A stretch of DNA of 64,000 bases, taken from NCBI RefSeq assembly GCF_000013025.1, contig NC_008358.1:620001-684000 (forward strand). Direction: 5' to 3'. Positions 4,183 to 38,614 of the stretch are shown one piece after another. The translations under genes and the position numbers were made by a program. The notes beneath the pieces were generated by a model. The model searched no databases. It saw only the letters and a program-made list of their open reading frames with translations, and was not told the DNA's origin. The DNA comes from Hyphomonas neptunium ATCC 15444 (lineage in GTDB: Bacteria > Pseudomonadota > Alphaproteobacteria > Caulobacterales > Hyphomonadaceae). Numbering within the stretch: the stretch's first letter is position 1; each line of letters opens with the position of its first letter.

Positions 4183-4784
4183 CAGGCGTCACCTCCGCAA
4201 GCCAGGCGTTTGACGCCGGGCGTGGGCAGCACGCCTTCCGGATCGGCAATCAGGTCCGGCGTGGGCCTGTAGATGCGCAGGGTCATGTCGAAGTCTCCGC
4301 CAGCCTGGCTGGATACCCAGTTGCCCGTCTCCGGGTCCGTGGCCGCAACGGTGAAGGACCAGGCGTCTTCCGCCCCCGAAGAGGCCGCCTTGGTCTGGTC
4401 GAAGGAGAGGGCGTTGTCCTTGTTGAGGGGCAGATAGCTCTGCGCGTCATAGAGGGTGATCGACCACCATTGGCCGGGCATGTCCCCGCCGCTGACCTCA
4501 TAGGTGCAGTCTTCCGACAGGCGATTGCCATCGCTGTCCATATTTGTCGTGAAATAGACCGCTTCTTCTTTCGTCAGCGCCAGCAGGCCGTGCCGGGCAA
4601 TGCGTGCGCGCGTCCAGGGGTTGGCGCTGGTTGACCCGATGGTCCAGTCGCTTTTCCAGCCATTGACATCGATCTGGTCACCCACGCTGGCGCCCGAGCC
4701 AATCATGCCCGCCGCGAAGAAGGCAGACGCTGCGCCCGCTGCCAGACCCAGCACGCCGCCAATCAGAAGAGGAAGAATCCGCAT
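4182..4784 (-). CDS. DUF1214-domain exported protein
   Basis: A 200-aa protein with an N-terminal hydrophobic segment (residues 1-27) and a DUF1214 domain, recognisable by WTRARIARHGLLALTKEEAVYF (in part), GQWWSITLYDAQSYLPLN and the C-terminal DMTLRIYRPTPDLIAD. Two cysteines (in EDCTYEV and RLACGG) could form a periplasmic disulphide. It is first in a two-gene unit with the DUF1254 protein. It diverges from the esterase gene at 4904, so the roughly 120-bp gap between them should hold both promoters. Molecular function is unknown. Confidence 0.78.
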   Translation of the reverse strand: MRILPLLIGGVLGLAAGAASAFFAAGMIGSGASVGDQIDVNGWKSDWTIGSTSANPWTRARIARHGLLALTKEEAVYFTTNMDSDGNRLSEDCTYEVSGGDMPGQWWSITLYDAQSYLPLNKDNALSFDQTKAASSGAEDAWSFTVAATDPETGNWVSSQAGGDFDMTLRIYRPTPDLIADPEGVLPTPGVKRLACGGDA

Positions 4785-33439: not shown

Positions 33440-34411
33440 ATGCAGCCACCCCAGCAACCGATCCGCGCCAATGGCCTCGGCGATCTTGTCGGCGGGCGCG
33501 GCGGCATCATTCTGATCGCCCTGATCGGCCTGTTCATCTACTGGCAGTCAAACCAGAAAGAGGTGCCCTTCGCGCCCGGCAAGAAGCAGTTCAACACCCT
33601 GTCGGTCGCGCAGGAGATCAAGCTGGGCGAGGAATCCTATCTTCAGATCCTTCAGCAGGAGCAGGGGCAGGGCAACACGGTTCTCTGCGCCGATGAGGCG
33701 AGCTGTCAGGGAGACGCCCGTGTGCTGACGGAAAAGGTGCGCGCCATCGGCACGCGCCTGCAACGCGCGGCGCTGGAGCTGGAAAACGATTACCGCACCG
33801 AGGGCTATGACATGCCCGGCGTGGTGGAGCAGTTCGACTGGACCTATTATGTCGTCGACTCGCCCACGCCCAACGCCTTCTGCCTGCCGGGCGGCTATGT
33901 GGCAGTCTATACCGGCATCCTCGATATCACTGGCAACTATGACGGCCTCGTCACGCTCGATGATGTTGCCGACGAGAACAAGCTTGCCGTCGTCATGGGT
34001 CATGAAATCGGCCACGCCCTCGCCCATCACGGCGCCGCGCGGATGAGCACCCAGCAGATGATGCAGATCGGCCAGGTCGCGCTCGCCGTGGGGGTAGGGG
34101 ATATGGACGCCGGCCAGCGGCTGGCGGTGCTTCAGGCGTTTGGTGTTGCCGCCCAGGGCGGCTTCCTAGCCTTCTCGCGCGATCATGAAACACAGGCTGA
34201 CAAGATCGGCCTCGATCTGCTCGTGCGCGCCTGTTACGATCCCCGCCAGGCGCCCGAACTCTGGGAGCGGATGGGCGAGATTGGCGAAGGCCAGCGCCCC
34301 CCCGAATGGATGAGCACCCACCCGGCCTCTGAAACCCGCGCTGAAAACTTCCGCAAATGGATGCCGGACGCCATCGCGGAATATGAGCGCCGCTGTGGCG
34401 CGCTCGATTAA
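33440..34411 (+). CDS. M48-family membrane metallopeptidase
   Basis: A 323-aa zinc peptidase with an N-terminal TM helix (about residues 22-36, GIILIALIGLFIYW) and the M48 active site HEIGHALAHHGA. The third ligand is the glutamate in FSRDHETQADKIGLDLL. The segment PNAFCLPGGYVAVYTGIL is typical of BepA/LoiP-like envelope proteases, which degrade misassembled outer-membrane proteins. The ATG at 33440 has an AGGA site. The frame is open far upstream only because it runs antisense through the MBL gene. The N-terminus lacks a lipobox, so it is membrane-anchored. Confidence 0.9.
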   Translation: MQPPQQPIRANGLGDLVGGRGGIILIALIGLFIYWQSNQKEVPFAPGKKQFNTLSVAQEIKLGEESYLQILQQEQGQGNTVLCADEASCQGDARVLTEKVRAIGTRLQRAALELENDYRTEGYDMPGVVEQFDWTYYVVDSPTPNAFCLPGGYVAVYTGILDITGNYDGLVTLDDVADENKLAVVMGHEIGHALAHHGAARMSTQQMMQIGQVALAVGVGDMDAGQRLAVLQAFGVAAQGGFLAFSRDHETQADKIGLDLLVRACYDPRQAPELWERMGEIGEGQRPPEWMSTHPASETRAENFRKWMPDAIAEYERRCGALD

Positions 34412-34440
34412 AAACGGCCCCCGCAGCAAAGCGAGGGCCG
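34411..34440 (-). terminator. Intrinsic terminator, leftward
   Basis: On the minus strand CGGCCCUCGC-UUUGCU-GCGGGGGCCG (one U.G pair) followed by UUUUU. It begins immediately after the M48 stop on the other strand. Plus-strand transcription has no U-tract here, so the element serves leftward RNA. Confidence 0.75.
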
Positions 34441-34505
34441 CAAAGGGCCATTCCCCAACGTGGAAAAGCGCGACCTTGGGAGCTGCGCCTTTCGCCCTTT
34501 GAATC
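34411..34505 (-). ncRNA. Candidate small RNA A (minus strand)
   Basis: About 95 nt, predicted from structure. Read on the minus strand it starts near 34504 with an outer stem CAAAGGGC / GCCCUUUG (34494-34501 with 34441-34448). Stacked on this is an inner stem GAAAGGCGC / GCGCUUUUC (34485-34493 with 34463-34471), with loop AGCUCCCAAGGUC and a one-sided bulge CACGUUGGGGAAUG. Loop UCCCAA can pair with bulge UUGGGG, a possible pseudoknot. The RNA ends in a terminator (34415-34440, then UUUUU). Two pairs are G.U on the minus strand but would be A.C mismatches on the plus strand, which favours this orientation. I do not recognise a known RNA family. Confidence 0.5.
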
Positions 34506-34521
34506 TGAGTAGCTAGGTCAA

Positions 34522-34534
34522 CCTGAACTTCAGG
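34522..34534. promoter_or_regulatory. Palindrome within the inferred promoter of small RNA A
   Basis: CCTGAA-C-TTCAGG is a perfect 13-bp palindrome. On the minus strand it lies between a possible -35 TTGCCT (34537-34532) and -10 TAGCTA (34515-34510). The half CCTGAACT recurs at 34582, exactly 60 bp away. It is operator-like, but the regulator is unknown. Confidence 0.45.
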
Positions 34535-34595
34535 CAACACTGCCGGCGCAAGGCGATCAGAGGGGTGCGGAAAAGCGCGCGCCTGAACTCAGCGC

Positions 34596-34641
34596 AAAAA
34601 AAAAGCCGCGAAGCCTCCTCCTCCCGAAGCGCTTCGCGGCT
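34596..34641 (-). terminator. Strong intrinsic terminator, leftward
   Basis: Perfect 11-bp stem AGCCGCGAAGC / GCTTCGCGGCT (34604-34614 with 34631-34641), followed on the minus strand by nine U. No minus-strand gene lies upstream except the proposed small RNA, so this terminator is otherwise unexplained. Confidence 0.85.
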
Positions 34642-34741
34642 GTCCAATGCAGTCCGTGCCGTCCACCGGCGTCACCCAGCCTGCAGTGTTCAAGTGAGCA
34701 GCGTAGGTCTTTTGAAAGACCCGCAACCAAAAAAGGTTACC
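34596..34741 (-). ncRNA. Candidate small RNA B (minus strand)
   Basis: About 146 nt, from a possible promoter with -10 TATGTA (34752-34747) and -35 CTTGCG 17 bp upstream, to a very strong terminator at 34641-34596. Internal elements on the minus strand are the hairpin AACC-UUUUUU-GGUU, then GGUCUU-UCAA-AAGACC, then a longer arm closed by UGCAG / CUGCA with inner GCCG-GUGGA-CGGC. The terminator loop is purine-rich (GGGAGGAGGAGG). No open reading frame with a plausible start fits. It is divergent from tetR and would share its operator. Confidence 0.5.
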
Positions 34742-34748
34742 CTTTTTA

Positions 34749-34763
34749 CATACCACTGGTATG
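34749..34763. promoter_or_regulatory. Probable TetR operator over divergent promoters
   Basis: CATACC-ACT-GGTATG is a perfect 15-bp inverted repeat 22 bp upstream of the tetR start. It overlaps a rightward -10 (TATGAT, 34760-34765) and the leftward -10 (TATGTA, 34752-34747) of small RNA B. This is the usual layout of TetR-family autoregulation. Confidence 0.7.
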
Positions 34764-34785
34764 ATCGTGCGCAAGAGGTGTGGGG

Positions 34786-35376
34786 ATGCCGAAACGCACA
34801 AAAGAGCAGGCCGCTGAAACGCGCGAGTCTTTACTCAGCGCCGCTAGAGAATCTTTTGCAAATCAAGGGTTTGCTGCCACAAGCGTGGCGACAGTAGCCG
34901 CTGCAGCGGGCACAACCAAGGGCGCACTGTTTCATTATTTTAGCAGTAAGGAGGCCCTGTTCCTCGAAGTTTGGACGGCCCTTCAGCTGGAAATGGACGC
35001 CGCGGCCCGAGAGGCAGCAAAGGCGGCCCGGTCGGGAACGGACCCCTATGCGGCCTTCCTCGCGGGCTGCCGGGTCTATCTCGAATGGGCCACCCGGCCC
35101 GATTACCAGACCATTGTCCTTGTCGACGGCCCCTCGGTCCTTGGCATGGCCCGCTGGCATGAACTCGACTTCCAGCTCGGCATGAACAACATGACCCAGG
35201 GCGCCGCCTATCTCGCCCGCCAGGGCCTGCTGGCCGAAGACCGTGTCCGACCCGCCGCCGTCCTCCTTCAGGCGGCGCTCAATGGCGCGGGCTTTGCCCT
35301 CTCCTCCAGCTACCGCGATGTGACCGTCAACGAGCTGTTCACCACCTTCGAGCAGATCCTGCGCGGCCTGCGTTAA
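34786..35376 (+). CDS. TetR-family transcriptional regulator
   Basis: A 196-aa repressor. The N-terminal helix-turn-helix (residues about 10-57) contains RESLLSAARESFANQGFAAT, then SVATVAAAAGTTKGALFHYF. The C-terminal ligand domain contains YLEWATRPDYQTIVLVDGPSV, in part, a pattern seen in TetR proteins with C-terminal domain type TetR_C_33-like. The ATG at 34786 follows AAGAGG. GTG at 34780 is less likely. The palindrome 22 bp upstream suggests autoregulation. No efflux or enzyme gene diverges from it. The nearest leftward unit is the proposed small RNA. Confidence 0.92.
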   Translation: MPKRTKEQAAETRESLLSAARESFANQGFAATSVATVAAAAGTTKGALFHYFSSKEALFLEVWTALQLEMDAAAREAAKAARSGTDPYAAFLAGCRVYLEWATRPDYQTIVLVDGPSVLGMARWHELDFQLGMNNMTQGAAYLARQGLLAEDRVRPAAVLLQAALNGAGFALSSSYRDVTVNELFTTFEQILRGLR

Positions 35377-38003: not shown

Positions 38004-38485
38004 GCGTTACATCTCCTGCAGCGCCCGCGCACTTCGATCACGGCGCGGGTCATCTGGAAGCCTGCGGCTTCTGTTTCCTGTCTGAGCGCCTGGCTGGTGG
38101 CCACGGCATGAAGTTCTTCGGCGTTCTGGCAGATCTCGCAGATCAGGAAAACCGCCGAATGATTGTGGCTTGTATGCCCGCACGCCACATAGGCGTTGAG
38201 GCTTTCGATCTTGTGGACGAGGCCGGTCTCCTGAAGGAAATCCAGCGCGCGATAAATCGTCGGCGGCTTGGCCGCGCCTTCCCCGTCCAGATTGGCCAGA
38301 AGGTCATAGGCTTTGGCCGGGCCGTCATTTTCCAGCAGCAGGCGCAGCACCTTGCGGCGGATGCGCGTCATCCGCTGGCCCTTGCGAACCACCAGAGCTT
38401 CGGCCTCTGCAAGGAAGGCGTCCGCGTCCTGCGGGGCGCAGGGCGTGTTGGCAGAACCATGATCGTGGGCGTGTGAATGGGCCAT
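38000..38485 (-). CDS. zur: Zinc uptake regulator Zur (Fur family)
   Basis: A 161-aa Fur-family repressor. It begins with a histidine-rich tail (MAHSHAHDHG) followed by the winged helix (GQRMTRIRRKVLRLLLEND, PPTIYRALDFLQETGLVHKI). Structural zinc cysteines are Cys116/Cys119 (CEIC) and Cys156/Cys159 (CRRC). Sensory residues are in ACGHTSHNHS (Cys102, His104, His107, His109). This is the Zur pattern rather than Fur. The start at 38485 is chosen because the open frame upstream has no homology. No zinc transporter gene is in the window, and I did not find an AT-rich Zur box. It diverges from the marR gene. Confidence 0.9.
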   Translation of the reverse strand: MAHSHAHDHGSANTPCAPQDADAFLAEAEALVVRKGQRMTRIRRKVLRLLLENDGPAKAYDLLANLDGEGAAKPPTIYRALDFLQETGLVHKIESLNAYVACGHTSHNHSAVFLICEICQNAEELHAVATSQALRQETEAAGFQMTRAVIEVRGRCRRCNA

Positions 38486-38614
38486 TCCCCTAATGTCTGG
38501 TGTTTTGAGACGAATGTGAAGGGGGATCACCGCAAGAGGCACTGGACGGTGTCTGCAAATCACCTGAGATTCAGCGCTGTGCCGCAGTAATCGTAGCGTG
38601 GAGGATTGGCCGGG

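Follow-up and report, generated by a model that had tools for sequence, protein, structure and literature searches.

What does the minus strand encode just beyond the stop codon of an M48 protease gene in Hyphomonas neptunium, where a terminator faces leftward, and on what would its product act? The locus lies in a stretch of 64,000 nucleotides, analysed as a whole and called the window here, for which an earlier note had proposed a minus-strand small RNA made of two stacked stems, with a loop/bulge pseudoknot, a weak promoter and its own terminator. The RNA itself held up, with a promoter region, a terminator, conservation and covariation in relatives, and the pseudoknot did not. With a probability of roughly 0.6, we read this RNA, RNA A, as a trans-acting antagonist (sponge) of a second RNA with C-rich loops, RNA C.

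Structure and promoter region of RNA A

The features of the locus are as follows.

34410 to 34506, minus strand: small RNA A, ends inferred; covariance-model match 34411-34501; single copy in its own genome
34494 to 34501, minus strand: outer stem, 5' arm CAAAGGGC, from folding
34441 to 34448, minus strand: outer stem, 3' arm GCCCUUUG, from folding
34485 to 34493, minus strand: inner stem, 5' arm GAAAGGCGC, from folding and covariation
34463 to 34471, minus strand: inner stem, 3' arm GCGCUUUUC, from folding and covariation
34447 to 34456, minus strand: invariant core GGGGAAUGGC, in 15 of 15 variants; complement of RNA C hairpin 1
34414 to 34441, minus strand: intrinsic terminator stem-loop with U-run at 34410-34414, from a terminator scan and covariation
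34522 to 34539, minus strand: promoter box TGTTGC-N5-GTTCAGG, two half-sites about 10 bp apart, from the relatives' alignment
34510 to 34515, minus strand: putative -10 element TAGCTA, of which chiefly TA is kept in relatives, from the sequence and relatives

Folding of the minus strand reproduced the predicted architecture: eight pairs of the outer stem (34501-34494 with 34448-34441) surround nine pairs of the inner stem (34493-34485 with 34471-34463), and a bulge on the 3' side holds GGGGAAUGGC. The terminator, with 11 pairs and a U-run, was called on the minus strand only, in agreement with the leftward-only activity claimed for it, and in the window it adjoins the stop codon of the M48 gene (Pfam Peptidase_M48). 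A piece of 95 nt has a minimum free energy of -50.6 kcal/mol versus a shuffled mean of -37.4 (z -3.9; 0 of 200 dinucleotide shuffles as good), the 62-nt body without the terminator gives a weaker signal (z -1.9; 9 of 200 as good), and the plus strand is less stable, at -39.9 kcal/mol over a slightly longer piece. The pseudoknot, a pairing of CCCAA in the loop with UUGGG in the bulge, was rejected because 13 of the 15 distinct variants of A lack it and just two have it. A small open reading frame starting at the conserved AUG was also dropped; its length varies from 3 to more than 40 codons and the peptide is not conserved.

The promoter suggested previously, TTGCCT-16-TAGCTA, is present in the window but falls below the scanner threshold, and relatives keep a different, larger box, TTGTTGC-N5-GTTCAGG, followed by TA. 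This box has a mean pairwise identity of 69% (18 bases from GTT, 15 sequences), compared with 35% in the 30 bases upstream, and its distance from the model start of A is nearly constant at 37-39 bases. Two half-sites about 10 bp apart near a -10 element resemble what we take to be an OmpR/PhoB-type activator site, and the 10-bp repeat leads us to suspect that the gene for A is driven by a response regulator. LexA sites and sigma-T sites (strict pattern) were each found upstream of 0 of 15 A, and the Caulobacter ChvI motif TTGC-N3-GCAA in the 120 bases upstream of 0 of 15. Having a promoter region, a structured body, a terminator and conservation in relatives, A displays the sequence features of an intrinsically terminated trans-encoded small RNA, and it is probably a real, independently transcribed RNA of about 95 nt.

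Just upstream of A, at 34596-34720, lies a second conserved minus-strand element with a strong terminator (34641-34596, loop GGGAGGAGGAGG), which is found beside A in G000, G022, G029, G034, G008 and apparently G061. Its G/A-rich loop recalls the site of CrfA for alphaR8 RNAs, it has no Rfam match at gathering score, and a related stretch, recognised by eye, precedes a TetR gene in loci L027-L031. A palindrome, CATACCACTGGTATG, at 34749-34763, stands just ahead of the TetR-family gene of the window (34780-35376) and is probably its operator; the similar TACCAYTGGTATG precedes a TetR-family gene in relatives such as L027 and L031.

Distribution and covariation of RNA A

By covariance model, A occurs once per genome in 15 of 42 Hyphomonas genomes. 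DNA similar to the locus was found by BLAST in 10 of 61 genomes, own genome counted, and the element is present in 13 of 22 loci located through the M48 protein. Among 200 genomes drawn from the order, eight had a model match, seven of them Hyphomonas; the eighth, L048, outside the genus, was read as a plain terminator and dropped, and the gene beside it presumably is tuf, as read by eye. A class-wide pattern search of 385 genomes returned the own site and one other, L049, which was dropped as it was taken to be coding sequence. Model searches of more than 40 genomes ran with stricter filters, at which weak matches are lost, and as far as was searched A appears to be confined to one Hyphomonas clade. 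Comparison with Rfam release 15, suggested in the earlier note, placed no family in the window at gathering scores, permissive searches giving only sub-threshold matches.

The model alignment of A (16 rows, 15 distinct) was built on the second MAFFT alignment with a structure set by hand and was then realigned by the model; three MAFFT alignments had shifted the outer stem in 3 of 14 rows, and L019 and L020 remain one base off and were scored as unpaired cells. An alignment fitted to a structure makes pair counts lean towards that structure, and it is in this alignment that 94.5% of pair cells are standard. The percentage paired and the covariation score exceed those of 500 of 500 shuffles and of all slid controls, and 8 of 22 pairs carry changes on both sides, a number reached by 11 of 500 shuffles. 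A search for compensatory changes in both stems and in the loop/bulge pairing had been suggested. Such changes are seen in the inner stem, where five of six modelled pairs changed on both sides, and also in the terminator (three of ten modelled pairs), but in none of the six pairs of the outer stem, three of which never vary, and the loop/bulge pairing itself fails in all but the two variants. The outer stem thus rests on folding, not on covariation; since RNAalifold prefers a small GGG/CCC hairpin inside the core, this stem may be one of two alternative states.

The most conserved part of A is the bulge. GGGGAAUGGC is identical and GGGGAATGGC is present in all 15 variants, within the longest invariant run of the alignment (13 bases), and the core reads as a ribosome binding site followed by a start codon, GGGGA-AUG-GCC. 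The four core G are predicted to be mostly unpaired (>0.5) in 11 of 14 variants; in G014, G017 and G061 they are closed fully or by half, and AAUGGC is for the most part paired in several variants, including the window's own. The functional core of A is probably this invariant GGGGAAUGGC in the bulge, which needed other genomes to be seen.

Search for the complement of the core

The complement of the 9-base core, CCATTCCCC, was searched for in the own genome and in two other carriers, which have 37, 38 and 25 sites, respectively; the comparison covered 30, 30 and 25 of them. One intergenic site was outstanding: the block GCCATTCCCCTTTGGCTYATGGCGGGYCGCAG is kept between the own genome (G000) and G020 while the flanks have diverged, and this site led to RNA C.

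Could A instead be an ordinary small RNA that targets mRNAs with the seed GGGGAAUGG, its match to C being coincidental or minor? The 37 sites in the own genome, some of them near gene starts, fit such a role, yet they recur poorly: of the 30 fetched, those also present in G020 are A, C and a single site on the antisense strand of a coding gene, and the three further sites common to G061 lie in stretches that are 73-87% identical throughout. Among candidates on the sense strand near a start, the C locus alone is found in both G000 and G020. For the entire 13- or 15-base block of A, 80 long perfect antisense targets were counted, versus 62 in a reversed control, which is no clear excess, and among the places listed no enrichment of long complements is visible in A carriers. 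We therefore consider mRNA targeting by A unlikely, while granting it some weight. An intergenic site common to L138 and L171 is no longer considered a target, the full 3 kb being 87% identical. At L183 1501-1535 in G020, CCATTCCCC stands about 35 bases before the start of a gene whose sequence looks 2-isopropylmalate-synthase-like; the loci fetched for the other two carriers include no homologous site.

RNA C

The site belongs to a second structured element.

G000:C1:884179-884266, outside the window, 230 kb from A: RNA C, structured, found through the complement of the A core

RNA C lies upstream of a gene for a thiamine-pyrophosphate enzyme (TPP_enzyme_N and _C). Its hairpin 1 has a stem of five pairs and an 8-nt loop, UUCCCCUU, whose predicted unpaired probability is 0.98-1.00 in all 14 C checked. 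Hairpin 2 is long, carries CCCCUU in its loop and has 9 of 23 pairs changed on both sides, as counted in 15 of 17 alignment rows, G034 being left out for an internal duplication and G033 for a divergent loop. The duplication in the C of G034 (Hyphomonas polymorpha; L207 1916-2028) is a tandem one of 22 bases in the 3' part of hairpin 2. Between two subclades, C has a mean identity of 73%, versus 42-43% in the flanks. GCCAUUCCCC is carried by C in all 16 genomes of the A clade, GCCATTCCCC is likewise present in 16 of 16 C, within the longest invariant run of the C alignment (17 bases), and CCCCTT occurs twice in each of the 16, so placed that CCCCUU stands in both loops. In six loci that contain A, C or one of the C homologues, Rfam gave no match at gathering score, permissive searches matching only below it, and the strict sigma-T promoter GGAAC-N15-17-CGTT was found in the 150 bases upstream of 0 of 16 C. 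Judged by its sequence, C resembles the anti-Shine-Dalgarno type of regulator with C-rich loops.

The Zur-like gene of the window has a start region, AGGGGAAUGGCCCAU (38477-38491, minus strand), that agrees with the A core block in 13 of its 15 positions and complements hairpin 1 of C; its mRNA is a possible target of C, and mRNA sites of the C-complementary kind thus exist. Similar sequence, with one mismatch to the search pattern, occurs in A-less genomes as well, so that Zur is a lead only.

The position of C raises the question of whether it is a 5' leader, or an RNA derived from the leader, of the enzyme gene, which A would then regulate in trans, in the manner of StsR, UpsM and the dcw leader in Rhodobacter (PMC8307010). 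Of the loci fetched, all 15 with the exact loop have C on the same strand as the enzyme gene, 156-180 bases ahead of an anchor close to its start, and the 3' end of C is imperfect, with an interrupted U-run and a terminator that the scanner did not call in the two genomes scanned. Against this, C has its own conserved upstream block, TCGAT-like with a -10-like element; by eye, a promoter-like pair (TTTTGC or TTTGAC, then CTAGGG, CTAAGC or CTAAAC) stands between C and the enzyme gene; and in many genomes the enzyme gene has no C directly upstream. A leader of this kind strikes us as improbable, and we continue with C as the RNA that A would antagonise.

Complementarity between A and C

GGGGAAUGGC of A is perfectly complementary to hairpin 1 of C over 10 pairs, or 11 in the window's genome, and this complementarity is conserved in all 15 A and all 16 C and is gone in the five C homologues of A-less genomes. 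A search for the complement of A is how C came to light, so the match on its own does not count as independent evidence; judged from sequence, what does count is the nature of the hit, a conserved and structured RNA from the same clade. The two paired blocks do not vary, and no compensatory change across A and C was seen.

For all 14 cognate pairs, the prediction that allows for accessibility puts the best interaction at the expected site, at net energies between -4.7 and -9.8 kcal/mol. After correction for accessibility, which was computed for 8 of 14 genomes, 2 to 11 of 60 shuffled C were as good, and full-length duplex energies gave no advantage, 25 to 168 of 200 shuffled C doing equally well. 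Four A were also paired with the five C homologues from A-less genomes: the A of G020 keeps AGGGGA/UCCCCU in five of five, at -7.2 to -7.4 kcal/mol; the A of G014 reaches -6.6 and -5.2, and that of G034 -5.3, at other sites; the remainder range from 0 to -4.2. The modelled energies thus lend modest support to the pairing, and the argument for the pair is carried by conservation, not energy.

Co-distribution of A and C

The C model matches 18 of 105 genomes of the family, all Hyphomonas, and 16 of the matches are strong. These 16 genomes comprise 14 of the 15 carriers of A, with C at the same site, together with G021 and G065. The one carrier without C is G011, an 85% complete genome in which the C locus gives no match whatsoever. 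G021 has a C with the matching loop and an A that keeps the promoter and the 5' half, a net deletion of about 110 bases having taken the core and the terminator (remnant at L016 about 4330-4470, in G021:C35); the deletion was read from the assembled genome, where an assembly error is possible. In G065, C has the A-type loop, and A was not detected by the covariance model with stricter filters. Hyphomonas polymorpha PS728 carries both, A in L014, which contains the G034 locus L004, and C in G034.

Five A-less genomes (G002, G005, G015, G028 and G033) have a C homologue at the same place. The C model recovered two of them, G002 and G028, and the other three were found by reading the loci. Hairpin 1 there reads GCCAGAUCCCC, with GCCAGATCCCC in the loop region, and the 10-base match to A is lost: the hairpin folds with a stem of 7 to 9 pairs and a loop of 5 nt, and the match ends at UCCCC. 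The second loop, by eye, lacks UCCCCUU. A check for compensation in trans with GGGGATCTGGC gave 9 of 263 loci, seven being the C homologues themselves and two own-genome loci.

In a tree of 29 rows, which leaves out G029, G011 and 11 A-less genomes, the 13 A carriers it includes form one clade together with G021 and G065. With these carriers in one clade, the match arose about once and the counts above are not independent; the co-occurrence of A and C appears to be essentially about one clade-level evolutionary event.

Proposed mode of action

At the level of sequence, A and C are both conserved and structured, their most conserved blocks are exact complements, and they share a distribution. 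They probably bind, with one controlling the other; we infer that the two are expressed and pair in the cell, which way the effect runs, and that C has mRNA targets. The rod of A would present GGGGAAUGGC in its 3' bulge, which would first kiss the 8-nt loop of C hairpin 1, and the pairing would then extend to its full length by opening the short stem of C. The loops of C read like the complement of a ribosome binding site and start, and C would block the translation starts of its mRNA targets. Because A resembles such a site and the loops of C its complement, A would serve as a decoy that withdraws C from those mRNAs.

One evolutionary course is possible, and we offer it tentatively: A would be a start-site decoy born on one Hyphomonas branch, imitating a ribosome binding site and AUG, and on the same branch an older C would have opened its hairpin-1 loop and gained the second CCCCUU loop. 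The presence of C in A-less genomes is why we place it before A. If this is true, the birth of a sponge and the matching change in its target can be read in living genomes, with G021 having just lost the sponge.

Two further alternatives concern the locus of A itself. That A acts on the M48 gene, antisense to its 3' end or at the transcription boundary, is suggested by the contact between terminator and stop codon in the window; A lies about 500 bases from M48 in L015 and L017, with other sequence between, and the part of A that touches M48 is not the invariant part, which makes this very unlikely. That the element is a terminator or repeat hairpin without any regulatory role hardly deserves credence, for although GC-rich terminator hairpins are common and L048, the sole match of the order search outside the genus, was one, the single copy per genome, the invariant block, the covarying inner stem and the conserved promoter box count against it. 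We return to A as a sponge of C and to systems that resemble such a pair.

Comparison with known systems

Caulobacter, which we take to be a fairly close alphaproteobacterial relative of Hyphomonas, supplies several points of reference. In the literature on Hyphomonas small RNAs, surveyed by title and with subscription journals mostly outside the scope, no description of A or C was found.

Two Caulobacter small RNAs resemble A or C in part. GsrN uses a C-rich loop as a pairing surface (PMC5869019), as C would; it differs in its locus and in its sigma-T promoter, which by the strict pattern is absent from 16 of 16 C and 15 of 15 A. ChvR is a small RNA gene driven by a response regulator, as suspected for A, but the published ChvI motif (PMC6237742, PMC9731502) is the one missing upstream of all 15 A.

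Few alphaproteobacteria have been the subject of tests on small RNAs that target other small RNAs, CrfA and StsR/UpsM being the cases encountered here. In Caulobacter crescentus, CrfA captures SisA-D (alphaR8), C-rich anti-Shine-Dalgarno small RNAs from separate genes (PMC12559287), a system marked by annealing that depends on Hfq and by decay of the partner. A would likewise use a G/A-rich pairing site to capture a C-rich RNA, apparently of anti-Shine-Dalgarno type, from what may be a separate gene; unlike the alphaR8 RNAs, C lacks their core UUUCCUCCCU (0 of 16), and the site of A is GGGGAAUGGC in a bulge, whereas that of CrfA is a G/A-rich stem-loop (PMC12559287). QrrX, SroC and 3'ETS-leuZ, bacterial sponge RNAs named in the same report (PMC12559287), resemble A in its proposed mode of action, by description and not by sequence.

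In Rhodobacter sphaeroides, the target of StsR is UpsM, an RNA that originates in a 5' UTR (PMC8307010). The likeness, again by description and not by sequence, is that a small RNA targets an RNA upstream of a gene, and the parallel would be better if C were derived from a leader; UpsM comes from the dcw 5' UTR, whereas C precedes a thiamine-pyrophosphate enzyme gene and is maybe a separate transcript.

A candidate pair obtained by comparison alone, with a clade-level origin, a state of the partner in A-less genomes and a natural deletion, makes the fit of a sponge and its target testable. In this reading, A would work like both CrfA and StsR, its nearest tested precedents, by analogy and with no relatedness implied.
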